From positions 1-20,959 of the IMG/VR virus record IMGVR_UViG_3300043536_000227: DNA of 20,959 nucleotides. One strand, given 5' to 3'. The stretch is from a virus. Below the pieces are notes generated by a model. That model was not told the DNA's origin and made no database searches. It saw nothing but the letters and a program-made list of their open reading frames with translations. This document shows positions 3,873 to 20,959 of this stretch, piece by piece. Within the stretch, counting starts at the first letter, position 1. Each line of letters opens with the position of its first letter. The position numbers and the translations under genes are program-made.

Positions 3873-5681
3873 CTAACGGGGCGCCGCAGCCAGCGAGCGA
3901 TAGTAATCGCGCAGAATGTAGTAGGCCTCCTTCTTCTGTCCGCGGTCGCTGAGCAGGCCTTTGCGGTTGTAGTAATCCTGCACTCCGTAGAGGAACCGCC
4001 GGGGGCAGCGAAAATCCACCAGCACCCAGGCGGACATGCCTTGCAGAAAGGGGATGCGCTGCAGCATGGGTATCTGGTGGCGATAGACGTTGGCCTGATA
4101 CTCCTCGGTCCAGGCGGTTGTGTCATCGCCGTGGTTGCCTGCCGGTGCTTCGGCGCCGAATTCGCTCATCACCAGCGGCTTGTCGTAGACGGTTTGGAAG
4201 CTGGTGCGGTCGGCCTTTTCGGGCGGACCGTCGTACCAGCCGATGTACTCGTTACAACCCAGCACGTCGAGCGACTTCCCCAAAGGGTCGTCGATCATGA
4301 TGGTGTTGGGCGCGCCGGCGTGCGGCAGGGTGGCGGCGGTAACGAGGCGCGTGTCATCCAGCTCGCGCGCTTTCGTGGCCAGCGAGGAAAGGAACTTCGT
4401 GCGCGCGTCGCCGAGCGGGGTTTCATTGGCCACGGACCAGAAAACCACCGACGCGCGATTCTTGTCGCGCGAGATCATTTCGGTGAGCTGGCGCTCGGCC
4501 TTGGCGTAGACTGCGGGATTGTCCCATTCGACGGCCCAATAGACGGGGATCTCCGACCAGACCAGCAGGCCCATCTCATCAGCCAGCCGGGTCATGACTT
4601 CATCATGGGGATAGTGGGCCAGGCGGACGAAATTGCACCCCAGCCCCTTGGCCCAATCCAGCAGCGTGCGGCCCTCGGCTTCCGAGAAAACGCGGCCGGC
4701 GCGGAAGGCAGCCTCGCCGTGAATGGCCACTCCGCGGAGGAAAATCGGCTTGCCGTTGAGCAGGATCTTCGTGCCGGAGGCGGCGATGCTGCGGAAGCCG
4801 ATGCGGTCCTGCACGCGATCGGTTTCGCTCTCGATCGATACCTCATACAGCTTGGGATTCGCGGGCGACCAGAGCGAGAGTGTGGCCGGGAAGGCAAACT
4901 TCGCGTAGCCATCCTCGCCGGTCTCGACCGAAATGGACGCAGCCGCTTCGGGAATTCCGATGGTGACCTTCTGCCGTTTGTGTGTGCCGTTCAGCCGCAC
5001 CCAGCCGGCGATGCGGTTGAGCGAGCCTTTCTCCAGTTGCACCTGGTAATCCTGGATAAATGTCTCGGGGACATCCACCAGCTTCACACTGCGTGTGAGC
5101 CCGCCGTAGTTCCACCAATCGGTCATAGTGGGCGGAACTGCGTCGGGATGGCGCTGGTCGTCCACCATTACGATCACGGCGTTGGCGCGGTTTTTGAGCA
5201 GGCCGGTGACCTCGAACTGAAACGGGGTGAAGCCGCCTTCGTGCTCGCCCAGCTTCTTGCCGTTAAGGAAGACCACGGCCTTGTAATTGGCGGCGCCGAA
5301 CCAGAGAAACTGGCGGCGTGGCGTGGCGGAGGGAGTGTAGTCGAATTCGCGCCGGTACCAGATGGTGCCTTCATACCAGAGGAGCTCGGGCCTCTGCGTA
5401 TTCCAATCGCCGGGCACCTGCAGCGTCGGAGTGGCGGGAAGAAAGGCCAGCTCGTACTTATCGCCCTTGTTGGCGGGGACGCGGTTGGCGCCAAGGCCCC
5501 CGCCTGGAATGGGGTTGAGGTGGAAATCGTAGTAGCCGGCCTGGTACGGATCCATGATGGTCTGCCATTTGCCATCGAGGCTCGCACCCTGGCGGGCGGA
5601 AGGATTCTGGATCGTGTCGATCTGCTGGGCGCGGGATGCGGCCGCGGCCAGTGCAAGAAAAAGCATCACGGAGACTCTCAT
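3873..5681 (-). CDS. Secreted glycoside hydrolase family 2 enzyme, beta-glucuronidase-like
   Basis: The 602-residue product starts with a signal-peptide-like leader (MRVSVMLFLALAAAASRAQQ), so export to the periplasm or beyond is likely. The layout is that of GH2: a jelly-roll sugar-binding domain (about 35-205, with WYRREF and FLWFGAANYKAVVFLNGKKL), an immunoglobulin-like domain (about 206-300) and a TIM barrel (about 300-595) introduced by LNGKPIFLRGVAIHGE. The acid/base should be Glu420 in SVANE and the nucleophile Glu507 in MSEFGAE. NRK at 572-574 matches the N-x-K motif that marks beta-glucuronidases and binds the substrate carboxylate, so a glucuronide or galacturonide is more likely than galactose. 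The gene is convergent with typA, and its start lies 83 bases from the last phage-type gene on the same strand. Exact substrate is unknown. Confidence 0.88.
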   Translation of the reverse strand: MRVSVMLFLALAAAASRAQQIDTIQNPSARQGASLDGKWQTIMDPYQAGYYDFHLNPIPGGGLGANRVPANKGDKYELAFLPATPTLQVPGDWNTQRPELLWYEGTIWYRREFDYTPSATPRRQFLWFGAANYKAVVFLNGKKLGEHEGGFTPFQFEVTGLLKNRANAVIVMVDDQRHPDAVPPTMTDWWNYGGLTRSVKLVDVPETFIQDYQVQLEKGSLNRIAGWVRLNGTHKRQKVTIGIPEAAASISVETGEDGYAKFAFPATLSLWSPANPKLYEVSIESETDRVQDRIGFRSIAASGTKILLNGKPIFLRGVAIHGEAAFRAGRVFSEAEGRTLLDWAKGLGCNFVRLAHYPHDEVMTRLADEMGLLVWSEIPVYWAVEWDNPAVYAKAERQLTEMISRDKNRASVVFWSVANETPLGDARTKFLSSLATKARELDDTRLVTAATLPHAGAPNTIMIDDPLGKSLDVLGCNEYIGWYDGPPEKADRTSFQTVYDKPLVMSEFGAEAPAGNHGDDTTAWTEEYQANVYRHQIPMLQRIPFLQGMSAWVLVDFRCPRRFLYGVQDYYNRKGLLSDRGQKKEAYYILRDYYRSLAAAPR

Positions 5682-5764: not shown

Positions 5765-8482
5765 CTAACGGCGGCCCATGAACCTCGCTCGAGCAGTCTT
5801 CATATTGAGCGGCAGGGCGTAGCCGATGAGGCACAACTGATCGAGCGCAAATAGCACCACCGATTCCACGCCCGCCGCCAGCGCCAGGCTCCATTCCTTG
5901 TTCCACGGTGTTGTGTAATCGCTGATGCCTACCAGATGGCTGCTCTGCGCCGGTGGGAAACCGAGCTGTTGCGGCATTTGAATCGACTGACGCGCCAGAT
6001 CCAGGTTGCGGTCGCCAGTGTAAGTGAAATTCTCGGTCTTGAGGCACGCCAGGTTAGCGGGCGTCCAGCAGGTTGCCGGATAGTTAGTCAATTTGTTCAG
6101 GGGCGTGTTATTGACGTCGGGCGGGTACAGCACCTCAAACTTCGTGTTAGGCGCCGACTGGCGAACGAAGGTCATGATTGCCTGCGTGAATTGGCCAATC
6201 AGACCGGGCAGAAAGGCACATTCGTTTGCATAGGAGGTCGGGTCGGCGTTTTGGCTCGGGATAACTTGCATCGGCTGCCCGTACTCCACCTGAAATGCCG
6301 CCGTCGTATTGGCGTCATAAAACGGCATGCCGCCGTGCGCAGCCGTATACCACCACTGAACCTCGCCGAACTGAAGATAGGGAATGATGCCGGCATTCAG
6401 CATGATCTGCGCCATGTCGAGATACGCTTGCTGCCAGAATGCCGTGCTTGCGGGCCCGAAGTTGGTTTGTAAGGCTGGTGTGCTTACCGTGCACGCGGTG
6501 CCGTCCGGATAGCGTTGGGCGATGCCGGCTTCGGTGCTCTGGTCGCCGTTGCCGAGTTCCATGCTGAATGAGGCGGTGACGTTGATGTCATAACTATGCA
6601 GAGCCTTGAAAAAACTGAGACTCCAGTCCCGGGCCGCCCGGTTCATCCGCGGCACCACGGTCAGGTCCGTAATCCACGTCCCATCCTGGCCGCCCACGAG
6701 CGAGTTCGTCGTCAAGCTGGCCGTGAATTGAGTGCTGTTGGTATTGACGCCCAACGCGATGCCGTTGCCTGCGGAGCCCAAGAGCCGCGAAGTGATCGTG
6801 AGGCTGGCTCCGCTGGCTTGCGCCCACACCTCTGTCGAACCTGCGTTGATCAGAAGTTCGAAGCAGGTGGCAATGCTCTCAGCCGTATCGCCAATCAGAT
6901 TCCAGTGCTGCAGCGCGGTGCCGTCCAAATCGATTTCGGTCATCCCGCCAGAACCAAACTGCGGCTGTCCGGCGAAAGTGATCGTCGCGGATGCGTACTG
7001 ATTGCCCTGGCACGCCAGCTCATAGAACAGCAGTGCTCCCGCATAGTGGTTCAGTCGCCCCCGCAACCCTAGGGTTTCGGCCAGCCACGCGGTTCGTTCG
7101 GGAGCAAGCGCCAACGAATGGTTGGTATCCCAGTCCGTTGCTGCCGCTGTTGTGGGCATCGCGCTGAACGTCGGGACACTGCTGGTCGGAACGGCGATTT
7201 CAAGGAAGTCGAAGGAAACCGAGGTGCCCGCCGTTCCGGAGTGAGTAATCGTGATGTTATGTTCAACTGACGCGGCTTGCTGACCCAGTGATACTCGCAT
7301 CAGCACATCCTCGCCGGCAAGCGCCAGGTTGATCAGGATCGGCGAGCCACCGTCTACCTGCACCGTGGCCTGTCCACCGCTCGTAAGGGCACGCGTGCCC
7401 AGATACAGAGTGTGGGCGAGCATTGAGACATACGAACACTGGATCATTGAGCCAGGCGACGTCGTCGATCGTATGGAGCCACCCGAGTAGTTTCCTGTTT
7501 CCGCAACCCAACTGCCGCTATAAGTGAGCGTCGCGGAATCGTCTTCGATCCGCCTGCTGCCGGGCCCCGCCACTTGATATTGCTGGCCGGTTCCGCTGAC
7601 AGTCCAATTCGACACGACCACCGAAAACTCGCTCCGTTGGAACGCTCCCGCTTGCATGTCCGCCGCCCAGGTCCATCGCAGCTTCCGTACATTCGTCAGA
7701 CTTACTGCGGGAATCGAGACGCCGCTCAAATCCGTCAGGTTTGCGAAGTTGAGATTCACTTGCCACGCGCCAGGCGACACACCGCCCTGAAACAGCGCCG
7801 CGGCCGGCGCCCAGGATTCGGTTCCGGCACCGTGCACCGTCCCATACACTCCGATCCGGTTTCCGTTTGATCCCGGAACTCCCAGATAGGTGAGCGTAAT
7901 GGTCGGGCCTGCTGCCGTGGCGCTAACGAGCCCGGTCTGCTGGTTCGCTGTGATAATCGCAGCCAAGACTGCCGCCACGCTGCTCAGCGTGTCTCCGGAG
8001 ACGAACTGGTAGTTGTAGTGTTGGTCCAGCCAGGCCAGCTCAATATAGTCTCCCACTGTCGGCGTGCCTTGCAATTGGAACTGCGCGGTGGCGGGAACCG
8101 CGCTCGACAAAGGCGTCGCATACTGCAATAGAGGGATCTCGAAGATCCGCTCCGCTCCGCCTGTATCTGCCCAAATCCTCAGGTAAGGCCATGGCACCGT
8201 CGGGTACAACGTGGAATCAAGGCTGATGCAGTTGCTGCGCACCTCCTGATACGATAGCTGTAATCCGCTTAGGTCCCCGTCGGGGAGGTTGCGCAGGGCC
8301 GGGTATTCGAAGACATTGTCCCGGTTCCATTCCAGTACCACCCAATCAAACTGGCTCCGCCAGCAACCGGAGACCGTGAATCCGGTCGGACCGGTCTGGC
8401 TCAGGGCCGCGATCGCAGATGGCTCAAAGAAGTAACACTGGAGATCCCGGTCGGGGCGCAACTTTGACAGCGTGTCTCCCAT
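5765..8482 (-). CDS. Tail-tip/receptor-binding protein with sugar-binding-like and TIM-barrel-like domains
   Basis: This 905-residue protein is the last of the structural operon, where tailed phages keep fibre or receptor-binding genes. I do not recognise a named family for the whole protein. Residues about 312-430 resemble phage or enzyme carbohydrate-binding beta-sandwiches (DDSATLTYSGSW, then a GGS turn, VQVDGGS, and FDFLEIA at the end). Residues about 140-235 and 505-602 look like two copies of one domain, each with a GDT-x-x-S-[VI]-A helix, an ITLT/LTIT strand, a G-N-[RG]-I turn and a GG near the end. From about 603 the pattern alternates strands and helices as in a TIM barrel, with Glu707 in PYLQFGEVQWW as a candidate acid/base and ISDYTTPWNKEW near the end. 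Its ATG overlaps the upstream stop by one base. Enzyme activity is inferred only. Confidence 0.7.
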   Translation of the reverse strand: MGDTLSKLRPDRDLQCYFFEPSAIAALSQTGPTGFTVSGCWRSQFDWVVLEWNRDNVFEYPALRNLPDGDLSGLQLSYQEVRSNCISLDSTLYPTVPWPYLRIWADTGGAERIFEIPLLQYATPLSSAVPATAQFQLQGTPTVGDYIELAWLDQHYNYQFVSGDTLSSVAAVLAAIITANQQTGLVSATAAGPTITLTYLGVPGSNGNRIGVYGTVHGAGTESWAPAAALFQGGVSPGAWQVNLNFANLTDLSGVSIPAVSLTNVRKLRWTWAADMQAGAFQRSEFSVVVSNWTVSGTGQQYQVAGPGSRRIEDDSATLTYSGSWVAETGNYSGGSIRSTTSPGSMIQCSYVSMLAHTLYLGTRALTSGGQATVQVDGGSPILINLALAGEDVLMRVSLGQQAASVEHNITITHSGTAGTSVSFDFLEIAVPTSSVPTFSAMPTTAAATDWDTNHSLALAPERTAWLAETLGLRGRLNHYAGALLFYELACQGNQYASATITFAGQPQFGSGGMTEIDLDGTALQHWNLIGDTAESIATCFELLINAGSTEVWAQASGASLTITSRLLGSAGNGIALGVNTNSTQFTASLTTNSLVGGQDGTWITDLTVVPRMNRAARDWSLSFFKALHSYDINVTASFSMELGNGDQSTEAGIAQRYPDGTACTVSTPALQTNFGPASTAFWQQAYLDMAQIMLNAGIIPYLQFGEVQWWYTAAHGGMPFYDANTTAAFQVEYGQPMQVIPSQNADPTSYANECAFLPGLIGQFTQAIMTFVRQSAPNTKFEVLYPPDVNNTPLNKLTNYPATCWTPANLACLKTENFTYTGDRNLDLARQSIQMPQQLGFPPAQSSHLVGISDYTTPWNKEWSLALAAGVESVVLFALDQLCLIGYALPLNMKTARARFMGRR

Positions 8483-11400
8483 CAGAGTCGAATGATGACG
8501 CTGAGGTCCGCACCTGGATAGGTCTGCCCTACCGATTGAACGGCCAGTGTGATTTGATCGCCAGCCGCTAAGGGCGGCAGGCCCTGCCCGCTAACGTCAT
8601 TGGAAATAGTTGCATTCGCTTGAAACACCAACTGGCAGTAAGCCGAACCGTTGACATTGAGCTGAAGTTGTACCGGCGCGTCTGCCGCCGCTCCAAGTAC
8701 CGCGTAAATATCTCCGACCGAGTGCGCCGCGTCCACCACCAACGCCGGTGCCGCAGACTGGTCTACTGACAGGAACCCCTCCACCTGAATCGAATACTGC
8801 CCGCCGGAGAGCGTCCGCAAACCACTGTCTACTGTGTGCGTCAAACAAGCGCTCGCCGTCGGGCTGTTGCCTTTTTGATTGGTAACGTACAGTTGCGCGC
8901 TCGCCACTCGGACGTCAGGAAGCGGCACGGAAAAACTCCAGGTGCCGCTATACGGGCTGCCGAAAAAGCCCTGTGGAAACCCTGCGACCGCCGTTAGGCC
9001 TGTCAGGTGAAAGACCGCCGCCTGCGCCGCGTGCGCGCTTGCCGAGCTGCTATGTACGCCACGCTGGACCGTGTATTGCACGCCTCCACCGCTGACAGCA
9101 CTGACCTCGAGCACCTCGCTATCGATCTGCAAAATGCTGCCGGCCTGCGCAGATCCGGGAGCATTCAGGGTCAAGGTCGTGTCGCTCACCCCGATCGCGT
9201 TGGCAAGCCCGAAGCTCGTGGCGCCCTGCAGTTCGTCCCAGTAATAGACCGCTAGCGTCGCGGCTGAGATCGTCTGGGTGTCGGTCAAACTGGTGAACGA
9301 AACTCCGCTCAGTTCCAACGTCCCGCTGCCTTTTCCGAGGCCCAGACCAAAGAACGGCAGCGGCGGCGCCGCGCTGTCGCTTGACCCGCTGCCGCCAATT
9401 TGCCACCGCGTTACCGTTGACAGCAGCGGCGGGCACTCCACGTTGGACGCGTTCGCCGACCGTCCCGTCACCTCAAGGGTTTCGCCGCCCTGGTTAGGGA
9501 CAATGAGACTGACGGGGCTGCTCTTAGTCGTGGCCCCAAAATGCCAGCCCGATTCCGCCACCACGAAGTAACTCGTGGCATCCGGAGGCACTATCAACGC
9601 GCTTGTAAGAGTAAGCGTCGTCCCGTTGTTGCTTGCAATCCCTGCCTCCTGGCCGGCCCCGGTCCCGCGTGTCACCCGCGCCGTCATGCCCTGGTAACAA
9701 TTTGGGCCCATCTGGAGGTTCCCATTTCCGAGAGTCGTTGGCGAGAAGGTGCTGGCTGCCATCTCCGATTGAAGTTCCATTCGCCAGTAGAAATTGGCAT
9801 GATCGAAATTCGCGTCCGGCGGAGCAATCAATTGCGGCTGCGCGCCGGTATCGGTGAAGCTCTTCGCCATCGTCTGGTTCGATGCGATTCGCAGCAAATC
9901 GGCGGGAGTAGTCCCGCGGTAAACGTTGAACGTACTGGCGCCCGGGGGGAAGCTGAGTCCCGTCAGCGTCGCTGAAGACCCATCGGTCGTCATCACCGCC
10001 GTTACGATAAATGAAAGCGAGCCTTCGTCTCCCCCCGCGTCCTCTCCCGAAACCGCGTAGTACAATACCTGGTTCGCCGCTAGCGTCCCGCCCGGTCCAA
10101 TCGTCGCGGCCAGGCCAATCAGCGGTACGCCTGGTCCTGCCGCGGTTGCGGTCGCCGGCGCCACAAAGCTCACCGCCAGATTCGCCTGAATCGTCCCGTC
10201 GCTGCTCGTCGTGTCTGTCTCGGCGATGCCAAACTGCACCAGGCCGTTCGCGTCCACCGTGCTTCCCAGCAACGGCCGCGGTACACCCATGGCGGCTGTG
10301 ACCTGCTGGTTCGCTCCCGGCGCAGAGCTGTCTTGCCCATTCGAGTCCAGATACCAATCATCGTCGTGGACCTGTGCTGTGATTACTGCCGTCCGGTAGT
10401 TAGTCGCCGGAGATATCTTGAGGACCCTAAATGGCTGACGATTGAACCCTTCTTTCTGATACGTGACGGTGATCACATCTCCCGGCCGGATCCCGAACCC
10501 CTTGACGCTTGTTTCGAATTGAATATACGTGTTGCCCTGCAGCGACTTATCCAGGTTGAATTTGAGAATCCGGGCAGCCTGGTCGTAATCGGGTAGCCCA
10601 ATCGCCATCAGCGTGGCCGTCACTTGCTGGCCTGTCAGGGTCACGTCGTCGGGATCTACAACCGTGTAGCTGTCTTGTTGGTAGCCGTTTAGGTCGTCTT
10701 GAAAATCTATGCTCAGGGAGTTCGGCGTGTCTGCGATATTGCGCGACGATACCACTACATTCGGTTCCCCAGTGGGTTTCCGCAAGATTCCCGAGACGCT
10801 CGTGGTCCCGTCGCCAAACTCGTAAGCCGGCCATCCCCCGTTTAACGATTCAGTACTATTGGAATAAGGGCCTTGCGTGGGCTGTTGGAGCGCTATCGAG
10901 TTCTCTACATTGATCTGCAGTATGCCCCCGGAACCGTAAGTCAGGTACAGCCGTGATGCATTGCGAATTCCCCGTATCACGTCGCCGGCGCTGCGCCTGG
11001 TCTGCAATACCAGGTTGCATCGGAACCGGGAGATGCTGATCGGGTTACCGTTTAGGTCCGTCGAGTTAATTGGCTCATCGCAATACGCCGCCGCTGCTGC
11101 CACGCTCGAGTAGTCGATCTCCGAGCTCTGCCAGCCGCTGCGCCGCAGTATGTCGTGCAGAATCCATACGGGATTGCTGGTGAATGCTTCGGTGAGCTGG
11201 TTTCCTTGAGAGTCATACCTAGGAACTAAAAGGCCCTGCACTAACACCTGCACCGAAGGCAGCGAGTTCCCGTCGCTGATTTGATTCGGCACCACGACCG
11301 ACAGGTATGCCATACCGCCATAGGGATCTCCTGCCGGCTGGCCGCTGGAGTTCAGAAAATTCAGATCGAATGCGCCGTCTCGCGTCCCCAGTGTGGGCAT

Positions 11401-12363
11401 GTTGTACCATCCCGTGCCAGTCATGTTTTGACCGCTTACGCCAAGCGGTATCTGATAGCCGTTCACCAGCACGGTCAGCACGCCCTGAATCACTCCGACT
11501 CCTAACAGCACCTCCATTCGTGTCAGGTTCCCGTCGTTGCGGGCAAATACAACCGGCGGGTAGTACCAGGCTGTTCCGTACACCATCGGAACATAGTCGT
11601 TGTAACGTGCCTGGTTCACGGCCACAGCGGAACTTGTCCAGTTCTTGCCGTAGCCTCGTACCGCGATCACCGGCGGAATGTATTCGATTCCGCCGAACCG
11701 TGTGAACATTCCGCGCACCTGACAGTCCGTCGAAGTGTACCCGCACGACGTAAACGGCGTGCCGTTATTCAGCTTCCCGCAGCCCCCCCGCAGGCCGGCC
11801 GAGTAGCCGCACGGATAGTAAAGGGAATAGCTGTTCTCTGATCCCCCGCTAATGGCTTCCTGCTGTTGAGCGGGTGTTGACGGGAATGTCCAAGGGCACC
11901 GGCGCTGGATCCGTATTTCGGGCAGAAACACTCGCTGCAGGCTCATTCGGTTCGTTGCCGTTACGCGAAGCGTTGCTTCCTTGATCTGGTCCGGCGGGTT
12001 ACAGATTCCCTGGAATACAACCACGGCGTCCGTCAGCGCCGCGTTGTTCGGTAAGTCGTAAAACACGAAGCTGACGGTAATCTTGGCGCCTCGGAAGCCG
12101 GTACTCTGCTCGATCTCGGAAAAATAGGAATCCGCATTCGCCAGCAGTAATGTAATCGTTGGGCTTCCGTCCACACCCTGGTCCGACGCCGTCTGGATAT
12201 CGAATGCGCTGTGCTGCAACACGCGAGCGGCATAAGCGGTGGCTCCAACTGTGATGCCGTGCGTGCACCAGTGTTCGCTGTCTCCGTTCGGCAGCACACA
12301 GTCGAATATCACCAGCGGCGCATCGGTGACCGCACACTCCTTTAACTCAGAGACTGTTTGCAT
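8482..12363 (-). CDS. Tail-tip hub protein: gpL-like Fe-S domain fused to gpJ-like hub
   Basis: At 1293 residues this is the largest gene. The N-terminal ~230 residues resemble lambda gpL and the DUF2163/BR0599-type hub proteins: a beta-rich start followed by a cysteine cluster (Cys156, 185, 195, 207, 214) and MFTRFGG. The last two cysteines are seven apart, as in gpL, whose cysteines hold a 4Fe-4S cluster. Residues about 235-670 look like the gpJ hub core, with SNPVWILHDILRRSGW at 396-411 and GIRPGDVITVTYQKEGF at 624-640. A fibronectin type III-like module follows (about 745-842), then several beta-rich phage modules, one with the common pattern LQIDSEVLEVSAVSGGG. It overlaps the upstream gene by 17 bases and the downstream one by one. 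It should sit at the tail tip and contact the cell surface. Confidence 0.75.
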   Translation of the reverse strand: MQTVSELKECAVTDAPLVIFDCVLPNGDSEHWCTHGITVGATAYAARVLQHSAFDIQTASDQGVDGSPTITLLLANADSYFSEIEQSTGFRGAKITVSFVFYDLPNNAALTDAVVVFQGICNPPDQIKEATLRVTATNRMSLQRVFLPEIRIQRRCPWTFPSTPAQQQEAISGGSENSYSLYYPCGYSAGLRGGCGKLNNGTPFTSCGYTSTDCQVRGMFTRFGGIEYIPPVIAVRGYGKNWTSSAVAVNQARYNDYVPMVYGTAWYYPPVVFARNDGNLTRMEVLLGVGVIQGVLTVLVNGYQIPLGVSGQNMTGTGWYNMPTLGTRDGAFDLNFLNSSGQPAGDPYGGMAYLSVVVPNQISDGNSLPSVQVLVQGLLVPRYDSQGNQLTEAFTSNPVWILHDILRRSGWQSSEIDYSSVAAAAAYCDEPINSTDLNGNPISISRFRCNLVLQTRRSAGDVIRGIRNASRLYLTYGSGGILQINVENSIALQQPTQGPYSNSTESLNGGWPAYEFGDGTTSVSGILRKPTGEPNVVVSSRNIADTPNSLSIDFQDDLNGYQQDSYTVVDPDDVTLTGQQVTATLMAIGLPDYDQAARILKFNLDKSLQGNTYIQFETSVKGFGIRPGDVITVTYQKEGFNRQPFRVLKISPATNYRTAVITAQVHDDDWYLDSNGQDSSAPGANQQVTAAMGVPRPLLGSTVDANGLVQFGIAETDTTSSDGTIQANLAVSFVAPATATAAGPGVPLIGLAATIGPGGTLAANQVLYYAVSGEDAGGDEGSLSFIVTAVMTTDGSSATLTGLSFPPGASTFNVYRGTTPADLLRIASNQTMAKSFTDTGAQPQLIAPPDANFDHANFYWRMELQSEMAASTFSPTTLGNGNLQMGPNCYQGMTARVTRGTGAGQEAGIASNNGTTLTLTSALIVPPDATSYFVVAESGWHFGATTKSSPVSLIVPNQGGETLEVTGRSANASNVECPPLLSTVTRWQIGGSGSSDSAAPPLPFFGLGLGKGSGTLELSGVSFTSLTDTQTISAATLAVYYWDELQGATSFGLANAIGVSDTTLTLNAPGSAQAGSILQIDSEVLEVSAVSGGGVQYTVQRGVHSSSASAHAAQAAVFHLTGLTAVAGFPQGFFGSPYSGTWSFSVPLPDVRVASAQLYVTNQKGNSPTASACLTHTVDSGLRTLSGGQYSIQVEGFLSVDQSAAPALVVDAAHSVGDIYAVLGAAADAPVQLQLNVNGSAYCQLVFQANATISNDVSGQGLPPLAAGDQITLAVQSVGQTYPGADLSVIIRL

Positions 12364-13129
12364 AGAATATGTTCACCGTTGCGGAGTGATGATTCACGTC
12401 GGTGGACGTAAATGTGAACGCGTCATCGCGGAAACGCGCGTTCGCATAAACTCCGCCCGTCGTCCCAGTCTTATAACTCGATGGCGCCGGCTGCGCTTCC
12501 ACCTGCGGTCCAAACACGCTCACCGTAGTGCCTGCCGGCAATTCGATTCCGAACTCGATCGAGCTTGCCGTAGGGTCGCCCGTGCCGGTGATCTGGATGC
12601 GGCTCCATCGCGGGGTCAGCGCCGCCTGTGCCGAGTTGCTCGCGAACTGCAACTCGATCGTCGCTGGCTGGCTGCTGAACGCATACACGCTGAAGCAATA
12701 GGTGTAGTTGGTCGGAGCGTTCAGCGTCTGCGTCAGCGCCTGCGCGCCGCCTCCGGAGTTCGTCAATTGCCACCCGTTGCTGCCACCCAGTGGGTCCGCC
12801 ACGTCGCTGGTCTGAGTCAAAAACGGCGCTGCCGCCCACACGGCGTTCGTCAGATCCTCGCTCCAGGCGAGAAGGTTCGCTGCTGGGTCCAGGAACGTGA
12901 AGCTGTTGAGAGATCCTTCCATCGCCGTGAAGAACTGCTGTAGTGCAGCCAGCTCTATGTCGCTGAGGTTGGCGTACTGTATTTGCCACCCAACGGTCGC
13001 GCCGGTTGGGTCCGCCAGTTTGATCGAGCTTCCGTCTGCCGCCGCATTCACCACAGTCCGCGGTCTCCGGTGCTTCACAATCGGAAACTGGCTCACCACC
13101 CCGGTTACTAGCTGTGGATAGACATTCAT
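12347..13129 (-). CDS. gpM-like tail-tip protein with an inserted carbohydrate-binding-like domain
   Basis: The 260-residue product is a paralogue of the 119-residue protein encoded just upstream. The match covers the helix and strand before the insertion (LSDIELAALQQFFTAMEGS and FTFLDP here; LDETEMTALEQFLESNQGS and FSFTDP there) and the C-terminal strands (DDAFTFTSTDVNHHSATVNI here; SDAMDLTSMEEMRGQTSVTV there). Between FLDP and the last strands lie about 138 extra residues (about 85-222). They begin NLLAWSEDLTNAVW and end VFGPQVEAQPAPSSYKTGT, the opening and closing pattern of the sugar-binding-like beta-sandwich found in many phage structural proteins. The fold likely belongs to the gpM/DUF2460 tail-tip ring, with the insert facing outwards. 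The start is 4 bases from the preceding stop, after GGGGA. Confidence 0.7.
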   Translation of the reverse strand: MNVYPQLVTGVVSQFPIVKHRRPRTVVNAAADGSSIKLADPTGATVGWQIQYANLSDIELAALQQFFTAMEGSLNSFTFLDPAANLLAWSEDLTNAVWAAAPFLTQTSDVADPLGGSNGWQLTNSGGGAQALTQTLNAPTNYTYCFSVYAFSSQPATIELQFASNSAQAALTPRWSRIQITGTGDPTASSIEFGIELPAGTTVSVFGPQVEAQPAPSSYKTGTTGGVYANARFRDDAFTFTSTDVNHHSATVNIFYANSL

Positions 13130-13132
13130 TAG

Positions 13133-13492
13133 TTATCCCCGGTTTTCCTTCACCGTAACTGAGGTCTGGCCGCGCATTTCTTCCATCGAAGTCAGGTCCA
13201 TGGCATCGCTGGCGAAACTGCAATTGTTGTAAGTCTGGTTATCCCATGGGTCTGTGAAGGAAAAGCTGCCGAAGCTGCCCTGGTTCGACTCTAGAAACTG
13301 CTCCAGCGCAGTCATCTCCGTTTCGTCCAGCTCGTTCAGGCGAATCACCCATTGGTGTAGAGGTCCGGCGCAATCGCGGTATCGCTGTTCGCTGCCATCC
13401 ACAAATCGCACCACCTGGTTCTGAAATGTGACGGCTTTGGTCGCCGGATATTGCGCCACGGCGCTGGTTTTGAGTGTTGGGAATGAAGCCAT
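13133..13492 (-). CDS. Minor tail protein, lambda gpM-like (DUF2460 type)
   Basis: This 119-residue protein has the size of lambda gpM (109 residues) and lies right after the tape measure gene, the gpM position. Shared features are an N-terminal beta region with VVRFVDGSEQRYRD (gpM: VRFGDGYSQR), a central helix TEMTALEQFLESNQGSF, a short F-x-F-x-DPWDNQTY segment like the TPPYEW loop of gpM, and two C-terminal beta strands. In lambda, gpM takes part in building the tail-tip complex that starts tail polymerisation. The gene starts one base after the tape measure stop and is followed 3 bases later by its larger paralogue. The assignment combines position, size and pattern; overall sequence similarity to gpM is low. 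Confidence 0.65.
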   Translation of the reverse strand: MASFPTLKTSAVAQYPATKAVTFQNQVVRFVDGSEQRYRDCAGPLHQWVIRLNELDETEMTALEQFLESNQGSFGSFSFTDPWDNQTYNNCSFASDAMDLTSMEEMRGQTSVTVKENRG

Positions 13493-13493
13493 G

Positions 13494-14192
13494 TCACAGA
13501 TCGTTGATTACGTCGTTGATTGTGCTCATGTTCAACATCGCGCTGCGTACCGCCTGCGCGATATCGCCGCTACGGTCCAGGATCGATTGCGCGTCCATCG
13601 CCTGGACGTTCACCGTCACCTGCGGCGACGCCGTTCCGCTCTGCCCGGCGCCGCTTCCGGCGGCAGCCGCCGAAGAGCCGCCGCCTCCGGAGGTGCTCGC
13701 CGTCGTCGTGGTCCCCACCGCCGTATCGGCCAGGCGCGGCATCCCCAACTGGTCGTAGTCCGCCCCCGCCAGCCCGTTCGGCGTATCCGCGCTTACAAAG
13801 TCGATGGAAGAGGGCTGTTGATACTTCTCGAGTTGGGGCGGAGCCGAGTTGCCTCCGCCGAACAGTCCCATCAGGCCGCTCACCAGCGGAACAATCCCAA
13901 GCCCGCCTTCCAGAAACGTCGTCACCGCCGATTCAATCGTGCTTCCAGTCCCACCCGAGGTTTGCGCCGGACTCTCCGCGCCCGCTCTGGTGCTTGTGCC
14001 CACCGGAGTCGCCGCATAACTTTGGCTGTCCGCGGCGTCGCCCGTTGGCCCGAGTGCCACGCTTGCGGCGGCGTCTGCCAGCACGCCGCTGGTTGATCCC
14101 GCTATGGCGTTTGCGGCCGGCATCCCCGAAACATCCGTTCCGGCGGCCTCCGCGAAGAACCTAAGAAGTTGCTCTTGCGTTGTGCTGCTCAT
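13494..14192 (-). CDS. Very short tape measure-like protein
   Basis: The 232-residue product sits in the tape measure position, after the G/GT-like chaperone pair and overlapping its frameshifted end by 32 bases, just as H overlaps T in lambda. Its C-terminus (VNVQAMDAQSILDRSGDIAQ, then AVRSAMLNMSTINDVINDL) matches the conserved end of many tape measure proteins. The middle has a hydrophobic stretch LGIVPLVSGLMGLFGGG (about 101-117) and Gly/Ser/Ala/Thr-rich linkers. Tape measure proteins of siphophages usually run from about 600 to over 1500 residues and contain long helices; here those are missing. The gene could be a natural minimal form giving a very short tail, or the remnant of a deletion that kept the frame. 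Confidence 0.6.
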   Translation of the reverse strand: MSSTTQEQLLRFFAEAAGTDVSGMPAANAIAGSTSGVLADAAASVALGPTGDAADSQSYAATPVGTSTRAGAESPAQTSGGTGSTIESAVTTFLEGGLGIVPLVSGLMGLFGGGNSAPPQLEKYQQPSSIDFVSADTPNGLAGADYDQLGMPRLADTAVGTTTTASTSGGGGSSAAAAGSGAGQSGTASPQVTVNVQAMDAQSILDRSGDIAQAVRSAMLNMSTINDVINDL

Positions 14193-14872: not shown

Positions 14873-16039
14873 TTATCCAAACGCGACCGCGATTTCGTTG
14901 TCCACTGTGCCCTGCGCCCGCGACGGCTTGAATACCCACTGCAGCCGGTTCGCGCTGTCGTCAAACTGCGGAACTTCCGGGATCACGCTCTGTAAGTACA
15001 CGCCCATCACTTGGCCCTGCAGTTGGCCGAGTTGGAACATCACACTGATGGGTGCGCGCTGGCGCGCCGCCTGGTAGAGCGCTGGTGTTGCACTGTCAGT
15101 CTGGCTGTAGAGTCCGATCGATGCCTGCACGCTTCTCTGTCCCGCTGAGATCGCTTGCGGAAGGCTGAATCCGAATTCCCGCGACCGCGTGTCCAGCCCG
15201 TTCTTCAGCACCACCGATGCTTCCGTCACCGTGAAGAATTGCGCTGGTTCGGTTCCCAACCACGCCTCGCCCAGGTTGCCGGGCACGATCGAATAGTCGA
15301 ATGCCCCGATCCCCGGCTCCACCGGGAAGCTCATCAAATTGCCCGCCCCCGCCGTGAAGCTTGCGCTGTCCAGCACGTCCTGCGCGACGCCGCTAAAATG
15401 AAACTCGTGAAAGTCGCCGTTGATTTGAATCTCCATCTGATCTACCGCGGCGCCGCTCAGGATTCTCTGCACCGCGCTCGCCGGATCCCAGTAGTCGAAC
15501 ACGCTCGCGCTCGGCAACTCGGTCGCCGGCTGGTAAGTCACCGTGGCGCCGATCGTCGTTCCACTCGCCGGGGCCGCGGTAAACGGCGCATTGATTTGCA
15601 CCGTGTTCGGGTCCACCACTGCCGTCACAAATCGTATCTCTCCCCCGCTTGAGACCGCCTGGCTTACATTCAGCCCGTGAGGCGCCGCAAAACCCAGCGT
15701 CGTGCCCGAGTACGATGCCACCATCCCGCCATTGAATACCAGCGGCGCTGCGCCCAATGCCGCCTGAAACAACGGCCCGTACGCCGGACCGCCCGCTGCT
15801 TGCCAGCTCGTCATGTATGTCTGCAATTCGAAATTCGTGCGTCGCCGCCCGCCCGCCGGCAGTCCGGGAAATGTCCTGCTTCCTGTTTTGTCTTTCCGGC
15901 TCGTGACCTCGAGCTGCTGCTGAACGGTCAGTTTGAGCGCCGGAATCCGATTGCCTGCCACGATCGCCGCCACGCTGCCGTACGCGCTTTCCAGCGCCGT
16001 GTAGAAGCGATTTGCGTTTGAGGAAATGTAAGAGGCCAT
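14873..16039 (-). CDS. Major tail tube protein
   Basis: The 388-residue product fits a tail tube subunit by position (after the putative tail terminator, before the chaperone pair) and by composition: beta-rich, few charged runs, no membrane segment. The N-terminus (SSNANRFYTALESAYGSVAA) resembles tube proteins of tailed phages that start with a ...ALE..YG motif, and the TSRKDKTGSRTF segment and the GLPAGGRRRTNFELQTYMTS region are also typical. It is longer than a minimal tube protein (about 150-250 residues); the extra length around residues 95-175, with a strand-turn pattern (GFAAPHGLN, then FVTAVVDPNTVQI), may be an added surface domain. The start follows the upstream stop by one base (TAAGATG), indicating translational coupling. 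Confidence 0.75.
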   Translation of the reverse strand: MASYISSNANRFYTALESAYGSVAAIVAGNRIPALKLTVQQQLEVTSRKDKTGSRTFPGLPAGGRRRTNFELQTYMTSWQAAGGPAYGPLFQAALGAAPLVFNGGMVASYSGTTLGFAAPHGLNVSQAVSSGGEIRFVTAVVDPNTVQINAPFTAAPASGTTIGATVTYQPATELPSASVFDYWDPASAVQRILSGAAVDQMEIQINGDFHEFHFSGVAQDVLDSASFTAGAGNLMSFPVEPGIGAFDYSIVPGNLGEAWLGTEPAQFFTVTEASVVLKNGLDTRSREFGFSLPQAISAGQRSVQASIGLYSQTDSATPALYQAARQRAPISVMFQLGQLQGQVMGVYLQSVIPEVPQFDDSANRLQWVFKPSRAQGTVDNEIAVAFG

Positions 16040-16040
16040 C

Positions 16041-16541
16041 TTAGTTAATACTCACTCCAATCTCGAATGTCACCTTGGCCGTCTGCACGAAGTTCCTTCC
16101 CCCGCTCTTGACAGGCCCGAACATAACCTGATACCCGCCCGCATAGTACATTCCGCCACCCCAGTCTCCGCGGTTGTCATCCAGCGTCTGCGTCACCGCG
16201 CTTGTGTATAGCTCAACCGTGTCTTGCAGCCCGTCCACCCGGTCCTGCGAGTGACGCACCTCAATCGCCATCTGGGATACCCCGGAAAACGTCCGGAACT
16301 TCTCCACCAGTTGGTTCACGATTTTCTCGCAGTAGACGTTCACCGCCGGGTACTGTGTAGCGGTCGCCCGCTCCACCAGCTCGATCGCTACGTTCTCAGT
16401 GCGAATCTGTCCCGTCCCCAACGGTGCAACCGCTGTCTCGCCGCTCAGGGCTAACGCCTCCAGGCTCGGATTCACGCCGCTGGTCCCGGTTAGCAACTGT
16501 ACGGTCTTGGCCGTCACCGTGCTTCCAATCGTTGTCGGCAT
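16041..16541 (-). CDS. Putative tail terminator/completion protein (gpU-like position)
   Basis: This 166-residue protein starts at the ATG at 16539-16541, which overlaps the upstream TGA by one base; AGAGGGG precedes it at a suitable distance. The same frame is open much further upstream, but that part is the shadow of the upstream gene. The product is alpha/beta, with TENVAIELVERATATQYPAV, a helix EKIVNQLVEKFRTF, and C-terminal strands ending VKSGGRNFVQTAKVTFEIGV. Its place directly before the tube gene is that of tail terminators, which cap the tube and join it to the head. I do not recognise a specific family, so the role comes from position and size. Confidence 0.6.
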   Translation of the reverse strand: MPTTIGSTVTAKTVQLLTGTSGVNPSLEALALSGETAVAPLGTGQIRTENVAIELVERATATQYPAVNVYCEKIVNQLVEKFRTFSGVSQMAIEVRHSQDRVDGLQDTVELYTSAVTQTLDDNRGDWGGGMYYAGGYQVMFGPVKSGGRNFVQTAKVTFEIGVSIN

Positions 16542-17305
16542 CAGCCCCTCTGTATGATCCGCGCCAGTGTCTGCACGTAGTTTGGAGACTGTCCGCACCC
16601 CGGCCTGCGTCCCGTCGCGCTGATCCACACCGGCTGCACCCAGGCCGCCCCAACCTCGAGCGGCGAGTTGTTCTGCAGCGTCATGCCGTCGGGATCCCTG
16701 CCAACGTACACGTTCCAGCCGGTGGCGTTCGCCGGTGCCGGCCCGATTTGCGCCGAAAATGAGCTGGACGACGTCGTAATCGCCCCTGCAATCGCGCTCG
16801 CACCTTCTTCGTTCACCCGGTTCACCCAGGCTGCGGTCACGTAATAAATGTTGTCCGGCAAACTCCCGGGCGACGCGGCCAGTGCTGGTGTCGCCGCCCG
16901 CGGAACCGGTATTGATGCCATCCCGGCTCCGGCCTCGATCAGCCGCTCTCGATACGACACCGCCATCTGCTGGAACTGATCGCGCTTGCCCATGTACCGG
17001 TCGTTCAGTTGACTGCTGTACGCGTCGCTGTATACCAGCTCCAGCGTTCGGTAGGCGAACCACAGCTTGAGCGCCGCCGTTACCACCACGTCTTCCAATT
17101 TCGGTTTCACCACCGCCCACAACAGGCGATCCGCCGGACTCGTCCTCTTCAGCAATGCATGCAGGTCCAGACCGATTTCTTCGTGCGCCATTTCCAGCTT
17201 GTGCGTGACATCGATCCCCTCGATGCTGGCCACGCTTTGCAACTGCGAGTCCAGCATCGCCAGGTGTTCGATGCTGCAAGGAGGTCCGTCCGTGAATAGT
17301 GCCAT
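16541..17305 (-). CDS. Putative head-tail connector protein with C-terminal fibronectin III-like module
   Basis: The 254-residue product has two parts. Residues 1-128 are helical (IDVTHKLEMAHEEIGLDLHA, then ALKLWFAYRTLELVYSDAYS, then KRDQFQQMAVSYRERLIEAG), as in head-completion or adaptor proteins that dock on the portal. Residues about 137-235 are a beta-sandwich of fibronectin III type (IYYVTAAWVNRVNEEGAS, then GWNVYVGRDPDG) that resembles a module in the tip hub protein. Its location between the coat gene and the tail genes supports a head-tail junction role. It starts 4 bases after the upstream stop and shares one base with the next gene. No named family is recognised. Confidence 0.6.
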   Translation of the reverse strand: MALFTDGPPCSIEHLAMLDSQLQSVASIEGIDVTHKLEMAHEEIGLDLHALLKRTSPADRLLWAVVKPKLEDVVVTAALKLWFAYRTLELVYSDAYSSQLNDRYMGKRDQFQQMAVSYRERLIEAGAGMASIPVPRAATPALAASPGSLPDNIYYVTAAWVNRVNEEGASAIAGAITTSSSSFSAQIGPAPANATGWNVYVGRDPDGMTLQNNSPLEVGAAWVQPVWISATGRRPGCGQSPNYVQTLARIIQRG

Positions 17306-17718: not shown

Positions 17719-18621
17719 TTAGGTGTTCACCTGCACGCCGCATTCGTTGCGCAGCACGCCGCACCCGTACAGCACATCCACCGTGAACTGCTGTGCCAGC
17801 GTGTTCGGCTGGTAGCTCATCACTACCCGCATCCCGAAGTTGCCCAGCTCGGCGTACTCGGCAATCGCTCCCGTTCCCGGAAGAGGCTGCGGCAGCCGGC
17901 GAACTACCAGGCCGATCGCATCCCGCGTGAACCCCAGGTTGTGCGTGTTGTTGCCCGTCTTCGGCACGAATTGCGAACGGAACACGTAGAAGTCTTTGTA
18001 CTTGCCGATCGTCCCGTCAATCAATGCCGCCAGGCCCGCCGCGCCCGCCGTCTGGAACTCCTCGAACAGCGGAATCTGCCGCCAGGCCGAATAGGCCGCC
18101 GCGTCCACCACGATGTACTTCTGCTCGCTCGGAGCCACCTTGGCCATGAACAGGGCCGTTTCTGCCGCGTCAATAGTGGCTTCCGTCAACGCCGTACCTG
18201 CTGTCCCTACCGGCGTGTTCGTTGTGAAACCCGCATAAAGGTTCAGCAGGTCGCTCTCGATTTTCTGCGCGATCGCCGCCACCGCCGGCTGCATGTAGAT
18301 CTTCAGCAGATCCGGCACCGCCAGCACCTTCGTCACGTCCGGAATCTGGAAAGTCGCTTCCGCGTGCGTGTTCAGCACGATCTGGGCGTTGCCCAGACTC
18401 GGATTCTGCGGCGTCACCGTGCTGCCGTCCGCGATGTTGTTGGCTTGCATCGTCGGCGGTATCGGCACGTTCACCGTATCCCCGGCGTTTGCCAGCACCG
18501 GCTCGTAATCGCGATTGACCAGGTTGCCCATCACCAGGTTTCCTACCAGCACCGGCAAAGCGTCCGCCGCTACCAGCTTCACAATCGCGCTTGCGACGTT
18601 ATTGGTTGTAATTGCTCCCAT
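17719..18621 (-). CDS. Major capsid protein, P22 coat protein (gp5) type
   Basis: The 300-residue product matches the P22-coat family pattern. The N-terminus is helical (AIVKLVAADALPVLVGNLVM), then GNLVNRDYEPVLANAGDTVN and VPIPP, the strand where the HK97-fold E-loop follows, and a long spine-like helix region (AVAAIAQKIESDLLNLYAGF). P22 coat itself is 430 residues, so this is a shorter relative, perhaps lacking the inserted I-domain. The ATG at 18619-18621 has a good ribosome binding site (AAGGAG, about 7 bases upstream), in line with the most heavily expressed structural gene. It is set off from its neighbours by two small stem-loops. It would assemble with the scaffold-like protein encoded just before it. 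Confidence 0.85.
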   Translation of the reverse strand: MGAITTNNVASAIVKLVAADALPVLVGNLVMGNLVNRDYEPVLANAGDTVNVPIPPTMQANNIADGSTVTPQNPSLGNAQIVLNTHAEATFQIPDVTKVLAVPDLLKIYMQPAVAAIAQKIESDLLNLYAGFTTNTPVGTAGTALTEATIDAAETALFMAKVAPSEQKYIVVDAAAYSAWRQIPLFEEFQTAGAAGLAALIDGTIGKYKDFYVFRSQFVPKTGNNTHNLGFTRDAIGLVVRRLPQPLPGTGAIAEYAELGNFGMRVVMSYQPNTLAQQFTVDVLYGCGVLRNECGVQVNT

Positions 18622-19310: not shown

Positions 19311-20687
19311 TTATCTCGCCGCCTCCTCAATCTCTTCCGCCACCTGGCTCTTCACTTCCTGCCGCGCGTCGGCCAGGTACTGGTTCGCCAGCCGCTTGTA
19401 AATCTGCTTGGTCAGCGTGGGTGACTGGATACCCAGGCTCAGCAGCTTTTGAGCGTCGTCCAATTCCGTACTGAAGTCGTTGATGTCAAACTCGTCCATC
19501 CCCGCGACATCGATCGAGACCTCGTCCTGCCGCGCTGCCGCCACCGCCCACAGCACCCGCTTCATGCTTTCCCGCACCGCTGTTCCGTATGCTCCGAGCA
19601 CCTCGGCGGTGGTCGCGAAGTCCAGTTGTTTGCCCAGAGCCGATTGATTGGCCGTGCTCGATGCCCCTCCCATCGCCTGGTTGTTCAGGTAACATACCCG
19701 GTAGATTTCATCCTTCATCTGAACCAGGTTGTCCGCCGCGATCTGGTAGACCTTGCCCTCGGGCTCCGTCCACCCGAACCGGTCCTCCGGTCCAAGCTGG
19801 ATGTAATAGGACTCGCCCACAATCTGGTTCCACTCCCGCTCCGAGTACACCACCGGCATCGCGAACAGCCCCATCGTCAGCGCCCACGCCAGCGCGTTTG
19901 ACTTATTAAAGTGCTCCAGTTGCAGCAGCGCGGCTCTGTTCATCAGCCACAGGCCCTCTGTCACCCGCATCTGGAATAGCGGCACCCGGCCTAGCGAAGC
20001 CAGCGCGTGCCACCCTTCGTCGATTCTTTCGACCGGCTTCCCCTCGCCCGCTTTCCGGTAGACCTGAAAGTTCTCCCGGTCGTAGTAAATCCAGCGCGTC
20101 TCCTGTTCCCACTTCGCATCCGTCACCTGGGATTGCTGAAGGCACGACGTCCGGATCACCGCCCAGTCCATCCCTCCGTTCGGGTCGTAGTTCCAGTTGA
20201 TGACTTCGTCCGCGCCGTAATCCGCGAGGTACGCTCGCGAGGTCCCCGCGGCGTCTTCTTCCGCCCTCGTCAGTGCCGGCCCCGTCGTGCGCGGAAAGTC
20301 CACTACCAGGTAACTCGAACCGCACACCAGCGCTTCCACGAATCGTTTGCGGAAAAACTCGCTCAGACTTGTGCCCTTCAAATCGCAATCGTTCGCCAGC
20401 AGGCTGTAAAAGTTCTTCGCCCCGGCGTCTGTCCCTTCTAGCATCAGCGCCGGTTCGCGATGCATCAGCGTCGCTGCGTACCAGTCCACGATCGACCCGA
20501 TGTAGTTCTGATAGAACACCCGGCTCAACCGCTCCTGGTAAACCTCTCCCGGTTCTTTGTGCCGCCGCAGCAGGTACTCCGCGGCGCGCGCCCGCAACTG
20601 TTCGCCGCCCGCGTACAGGTCCCTGTAGCGTCGCCACGTTGCCTTTCGCGCCATGTACTCCGGATGCTCCCGGTTGATCGTCTCCAT
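19311..20687 (-). CDS. Portal protein (DUF4055-like)
   Basis: The portal forms the dodecameric ring at the head vertex through which DNA enters and leaves. With the ATG at 20685-20687 the product has 458 residues and begins METINREHPEYMARKATWRRYRDLYAGGE, interrupted here only by description limits: the key motif is W-R-x-Y-R-D-L-Y-A-G. Other portal features are YLLRRHKEP, FYQNYIGSIVDWYAATLMHR, HFNKSNALAWALTMGLFAMP (clip/stem region), the long stem helix near LVQMKDEIYRVCYLNNQAM, and a helical C-terminus. It follows the terminase stop by two bases, so the start further upstream (20 codons, inside the terminase gene) is less likely. It is followed by an 88-base gap with nothing recognisable before the scaffold-like gene. 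Confidence 0.85.
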   Translation of the reverse strand: METINREHPEYMARKATWRRYRDLYAGGEQLRARAAEYLLRRHKEPGEVYQERLSRVFYQNYIGSIVDWYAATLMHREPALMLEGTDAGAKNFYSLLANDCDLKGTSLSEFFRKRFVEALVCGSSYLVVDFPRTTGPALTRAEEDAAGTSRAYLADYGADEVINWNYDPNGGMDWAVIRTSCLQQSQVTDAKWEQETRWIYYDRENFQVYRKAGEGKPVERIDEGWHALASLGRVPLFQMRVTEGLWLMNRAALLQLEHFNKSNALAWALTMGLFAMPVVYSEREWNQIVGESYYIQLGPEDRFGWTEPEGKVYQIAADNLVQMKDEIYRVCYLNNQAMGGASSTANQSALGKQLDFATTAEVLGAYGTAVRESMKRVLWAVAAARQDEVSIDVAGMDEFDINDFSTELDDAQKLLSLGIQSPTLTKQIYKRLANQYLADARQEVKSQVAEEIEEAAR

Positions 20688-20689
20688 GA

Positions 20690-20959
20690 TTAGAACAATC
20701 GCTCCCGCCGCTCCCCGATTCTGGGAAGCGTTCTGCACTCCTGCCACAACAGGTATCCCAACGCGTCCGATAGGTGCGTCCTCATTCGGTCCCGATCTTT
20801 ATCGATCGCATTCGAATCGGCCTTGTAAGTCACTTGCTCCAGATCCTTGATCAGTTCCTTGCACTTCGGGTCCACCAGCAGCCCGACTTCTCCCGTCGCC
20901 GATCGCAGCTTCGCAGTCGTCAAGTTGATCCGTTCCCGCACGCTCGGGTTCGCTCTCGG
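20690..20959 (-). CDS. Terminase large subunit, C-terminal end (partial)
   Basis: The frame enters from the right edge and runs 89 codons to the TAA at 20690-20692. The visible part is the end of the nuclease domain: NPSVRERINLTTAKLRSATG, LLVDPKCKELIKDLEQVTYK, and RMRTHLSDALGYLLW. The THxSDALGY motif carries the last acidic metal-binding residue of the RuvC-like nuclease of large terminases. TerL packages DNA into the procapsid with its N-terminal ATPase and cuts it with this domain. The ATPase part, the small subunit and anything upstream are outside the window. An apparent GTG start at 20939-20941 is internal, because the same frame continues with matching residues to the edge. Confidence 0.88.
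   Translation of the reverse strand, partial: PRANPSVRERINLTTAKLRSATGEVGLLVDPKCKELIKDLEQVTYKADSNAIDKDRDRMRTHLSDALGYLLWQECRTLPRIGERRERLF

Follow-up and report, generated by a model that had tools for sequence, protein, structure and literature searches.

The window analysed here, a stretch of 20,959 nucleotides from a viral record (IMGVR_UViG_3300043536_000227), contains two adjacent minus-strand genes, A and B, whose products look alike except that B carries about 137 extra residues. An initial annotation had taken both for tip-ring proteins of the lambda gpM type, duplicated in tandem, one copy having become a scaffold for a binding domain. The locus raises the question of whether the two proteins share an origin, what the extra domain is, and what kind of element, a phage or something inherited with the host, keeps such a pair.

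Results

Paralogy and tail-tip identity of A and B

Gene A (13133..13492, minus strand, 119 aa) and gene B (12347..13129, minus strand, 260 aa) are open frames separated by 3 nt, and B overlaps the hub gene beyond it by 17 nt. Over residues 1-85 their products align by BLASTP without gaps (30/85 identical, 35%; E 1e-14), and the alignment stops at an F-x-DP motif. Profiles built from 34 A and 34 B orthologues matched each other over the N-terminal halves (E 4.7e-22); in whole-protein comparison only this part aligned, because the insert of B interrupts the alignment. When the protein pieces were compared separately, the C-terminal ones (about 31 residues; 12347..12457, minus strand, in B) also matched, with E 1.5e-5 and a score of 23.7 that none of 200 column shuffles of the profile equalled (maximum 14.2). 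The insert, by the same kind of profile-profile comparison, had no counterpart in A. A and B are thus paralogous Dit/gpM-type tail-tip proteins, aligning on both sides of F-x-DP as had been proposed.

Assignment to the tail tip is most direct for A, which exceeds the curated Pfam cut-off of DUF2460 (PF09343, 44.3 bits versus 30.4; E 1.8e-11) and matches Phage_min_tail, the gpM family, more weakly (4e-5). Searched against the PDB, its profile found the distal tail protein of phage R4C (E 0.0047) and lambda gpM (0.047). AlphaFold modelled A with modest confidence (pLDDT 72); the best solved folds for this model are T5 Dit pb9 (Z 6.6) and lambda gpM (Z 6.1, 24% identity over 103 residues), followed by RcGTA Dit (Z 5.7) and R4C Dit (Z 5.5). 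Both the pLDDT and these middling Z-scores count against our reading. B scores 25.1 bits against PF09343, below the cut-off of 30.4, and on its own matched nothing in a sequence search of the PDB, so its assignment derives from its paralogy with A and from its fold. The model of B (pLDDT 90, pTM 0.84) matches a T5-type Dit nearly end to end (7qg9_V, 257-263 columns, E 4e-5, Foldseek). Taken together, the shared fold matches and the sequence paralogy point to a Dit core in both proteins; outside the insert, the two models do not have unrelated folds, and the gpM/tip-ring assignment of the initial annotation agrees with them. Membership in the RcGTA lineage by way of its Dit family, TIGR02217, was rejected: A reached 11.8 bits against a cut-off of 136.65, and B gave no match.

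The insert of B

The extra residues follow directly after F-x-DP and occupy residues 83-219 or so (12473..12883, minus strand), within a few residues of the 12464-12877 (about 138 residues) first proposed. The NCBIfam model NF048003 ('GTA_spike_fiber', phage head spike fiber domain) covers residues 82-219 of B with 67.5 bits against a cut-off of 36 (E 2.1e-18). Residues 83-218 of the model match the folds of CBM4, CBM61, CBM22 and CBM16 modules as well as domains of Pa193 and phi812 (VIA Z 12-15), the CBM-type beta-sandwich being matched at VIA Z 12-14 over 121-138 residues. The insert part of the B profile also weakly finds CBM4-2 of a Rhodothermus xylanase (E 0.045). Judged by sequence and predicted fold, the insert is a carbohydrate-binding-module-like domain of the CBM4/16/22/61 type, in keeping with the common phage beta-sandwich first suspected, and the opening (NLL..SEDLTNAVW) and closing (FGPQVEAQ) motifs are kept in most orthologues.

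Searched for elsewhere, NF048003 turned up in a fibre-like protein of unrelated type (L045, E 8.6e-24). It also turned up in a protein from a different genome of the class (L130, E 2e-19), encoded between genes that look tape-measure-like and gpL-like, labels read from sequence rather than from a profile match. Since the domain occurs in unrelated proteins, it is a mobile module, as the initial annotation had anticipated. The latter protein (L130:2374-3654, 426 aa) is encoded where Dit would be expected in a different phage-like cluster, and gives a further example of the module in what is likely a tail-tip gene.

Fold and position suggest that the insert may bind a ligand and be displayed at the tail tip. 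It could instead be a structural or assembly module, for instance a brace of the ring or a binder of another tail protein, a reading compatible with what we propose for the element as a whole. In its favour, the Pa193 and phi812 baseplate domains are among the closest folds, and the insert evolves under only slightly weaker constraint than the scaffold (dN/dS 0.21 versus 0.13; A has 0.13 and the whole of B 0.175), unlike a diversifying receptor-binding domain. Positive selection on the insert is ruled out at this value, and the lack of the hypervariability seen in many receptor-binding domains also weighs against our own reading. Nonetheless, sugar-binding modules account for the majority of the top fold matches, and for the domains added to Dit in RcGTA and R4C the authors propose a role in sugar binding (PMC7296036, PMC10276861). 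We therefore regard a purely structural insert as unlikely, though by a smaller measure than the other alternatives below.

The surrounding gene cluster

A and B lie in a cluster of 16 kb, and the genes assigned in it are all on the minus strand. Beyond B lie the hub or J-like tail protein (8482..12363, 1293 aa; Phage-tail_3 4e-9, phrog_31 central tail fiber J 1e-29), with a Cys-rich N-terminal region, and a TIM-barrel tail protein (5765..8482; PF23845, Pfam 8.5e-22), the cluster's final gene here. On the other side of A are a short tape-measure protein (13494..14192, 232 aa; phrog_3779 TMP C-terminus), a tail tube or minor tail-like protein (14873..16039, 388 aa; phrog_290 2.5e-12), a head-closure-like protein (16541..17305; phrog_8040 1.3e-5), a major capsid protein of the P22-coat family (17719..18621; PF11651 6.7e-16, phrog_283 3.5e-42) and a portal protein (19311..20747; phrog_145 3e-48). 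Next comes the C-terminal piece of a large terminase (20690..20941), truncated where the record ends and recognised by alignment to the full-length terminase of relatives; the terminase of one genome, G008, has a Terminase_6N match. No integrase, lysis or replication gene was recognised inside the cluster.

Several features of these genes and their surroundings stand apart. The hub protein encoded at 8482-12363 looks as if a gpL-like N-terminal region, rich in Cys, had been fused to a J-like part; its first 330 residues have no Pfam match. A domain shared between the hub and the head-closure-like protein encoded from 16541 was considered and dropped as too weak (E 0.045). About ten of the regions examined showed no recognisable counterpart, behind the hub, of the TIM-barrel gene at 5765-8482, labelled 'non-contractile tail sheath'; in G006 a host gene directly follows the hub gene. 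In the window a GH2-family glycosidase (3873-5681) separates the cluster from TypA; at this place in the closest relative, G001, it is missing and TypA directly follows the cluster.

A shortened tape measure

The protein encoded before A measures 153-384 aa in the clusters, typically about 230 aa; the corresponding tape measures of the phage and prophage loci L094/L133, L128, L161 and L162 have 862-1175 aa. A profile of the short proteins matches these long ones with E 1e-14 to 1e-17, the match in L128 (E 1.4e-17) covering residues 691-858 of 862. Because the alignment lies at the C-terminus of the long proteins, it is this part of a phage tape measure that the short form represents. By the rule that the tape measure acts as the ruler of tail length, the tail would then be very short, and the gene, set beside its phage relatives, appears to be a direct trace of tail shortening. 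The tail of RcGTA is also short, with five tube rings (PMC7296036).

Age of the tandem and its phage relatives

Nearly all loci recovered with B carry A and B together; two (L045, L046) have the insert alone. A tree built from 52 N-terminal domains fully separates A and B as reciprocally monophyletic groups (support 0.81, none misplaced); it upholds the proposed duplication of a tip-ring protein and rules out one that is recent or confined to the window. In both halves of the tree, the pairs from the phage and prophage loci L094, L128 and L162 occupy positions close to the base. From this basal position, duplication and insertion seem to be older than the spread of the chromosomal clusters.

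Prophages of two genomes (G068:C1 and G075:C154) also have the tandem, as does L162, which is part of a viral contig of 49.9 kb; a BLAST search with B gave no match among cultured phages and plasmids. One of these prophages (G068:C1:856000-895000; L133, L134) combines the tandem with a long tape measure and a phage lysozyme, and its genome also holds a shortened cluster (L093).

Distribution, inheritance and selection across the host order

Of 150 genomes sampled from the order to which G001 belongs, 108 have B by profile search; the remaining 42 gave no match, whether as incomplete MAGs or through loss, and count against our reading. We use the name Bryobacterales for this order on the basis of the labels of related host loci, which read Bryobacterales, Solibacteraceae, Sulfopaludibacter or Acidobacteria. 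Where B is present it is nearly always a single full-length copy, and in most cases A lies about 100 bp upstream. A sample of 250 genomes from the class added, to those of the order sample, no more than two genomes with both genes (G156, G164) and three that have just the insert.

These data bear on the possibility that the cluster is part of an active temperate Bryobacterales phage, cut by the contig, with A and B at its tail tip and B as determinant of host range. The source is classed as a virus record, the structural genes are intact, with purifying selection acting on them, and related true phages and prophages with both genes exist. Set against this are the single full-length copy per genome in most of the order and a tape measure about four times shorter than those of the phages. 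Moreover, host genes directly adjoin the cluster, and several divergent genomes have neighbours in common, namely a Wzt-type ABC ATPase 13-53 bp away and an M24 peptidase. A search of 12 genomes for tyrosine integrases (PF00589) found none within about 19 kb of the cluster; the true prophage of G068 does have one, about 31 kb into the stretch examined. We consider an active phage improbable. A fixed chromosomal site beside TypA was ruled out, as this arrangement is common to the window and G001 only.

Gene order from terminase to hub was identical in nearly all 20-kb regions compared. A tree of the element, based on five cluster genes, had 11 of 20 splits in common with a host tree of RpoB and TypA, both built from single-pass matches, against a random mean of 0.37 and a maximum of 4 in 5000. 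The cluster was thus inherited mainly vertically with its host, with some supported conflicts: several well-supported nodes involving G115, G028, G105 and G156 disagree with the host tree, so that some horizontal movement or tree error remains.

All cluster genes tested have dN/dS between 0.07 and 0.25, and the cluster is therefore under purifying selection. That it is a slowly decaying, non-functional prophage remnant, its A/B pair being without a current role, is very improbable given such values in every gene tested, the insert included, and a gene order constant across the order, even though lysis and replication genes are unrecognised, a few copies of B have an internal stop and that of L041 is split.

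Discussion

The explanation that best accounts for these results is that A and B are paralogous tip rings, B being decorated, in a cluster domesticated as a gene-transfer-agent-like (GTA-like) element; we put its probability at roughly 70%. A and B would each form a ring, presumably hexameric, between tail tube and hub, A being bare and B forming a second ring, with the CBM-like beta-sandwich set into its rim loop after F-x-DP. The tip would then bear about six outward-facing modules, which may attach to surface polysaccharide ahead of cell engagement by the hub. A single origin of the tandem is probable, in an acidobacterial siphophage whose structural genes were captured by an ancestor of the Bryobacterales, and the tandem would have been kept through mainly vertical inheritance under purifying selection. 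The cluster is best read as such a domesticated element and most likely yields a GTA-like particle, both particle production and DNA transfer being predictions. The more specific proposal, that the Bryobacterales (Acidobacteriota) carry an order-wide GTA of independent origin, derived from a siphophage with a P22-family capsid, a tape measure cut to its C-terminal part and a tip of two Dit rings, one with sugar-binding modules, is tentative, and we would place it a little short of even odds.

If the cluster makes particles that carry DNA, a major soil phylum would have a gene transfer agent. Titles and abstracts of the literature, with subscription journals mostly outside this coverage, contained no account of such an agent from Acidobacteria, Acidobacteriota or Bryobacter; PMC5900883 mentions gene transfer agents only in passing. 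The cluster would offer a before-and-after view of phage domestication, the same A and B tip being found with full-length tape measures in true phages and with shortened ones in host-inherited clusters. The pair itself would represent a fixed division of labour in the tail tip, a bare ring and a decorated one, conserved across a bacterial order and in its phage relatives.

Lambda gpM and T5 pb9, the best fold matches of A, are single genes, unlike the tandem described here. The former has 109 aa and no insertion, and that of pb9 is described as an OB-type fold. The Dit proteins of RcGTA (Rcc01695, DUF2460/TIGR02217) and R4C resemble B in having a Dit core with an added domain, for which the authors propose sugar binding. 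The A profile aligns without gaps to R4C Dit 21-88, so the R4C domain would be added at the same site as the insert of B. The folds reported there, OB-like in RcGTA and T7-fibre-like in R4C, differ from that of B, and the available parts of these papers do not describe a bare and decorated pair (PMC7296036, PMC10276861). An 'evolved Dit' with an added carbohydrate-binding module is found in lactococcal, Oenococcus and streptococcal siphophages (e.g. PMC10688798); we liken it to B by description, and its hosts are Gram-positive. NF048003 is named for head-spike fibres, whereas the domain of B sits in a tail-tip ring protein. Thus, of the proposed duplication and conversion into a binding-domain scaffold, the paralogy and the CBM-like insert hold, but the event is old and a domain at the Dit site, already known from RcGTA, R4C, T5 and 'evolved Dit', is not itself new; what is new is that a bare and a decorated copy form a fixed tandem.

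As for the element, it resembles the known GTAs (RcGTA, BaGTA, and those of Brachyspira, Desulfovibrio and Methanococcus) as a vertically inherited structural cluster near which no tyrosine integrase was found, and it resembles RcGTA further in its short tape-measure protein and gene order. It differs in its P22-coat-family capsid, its phylum and its tandem Dit.
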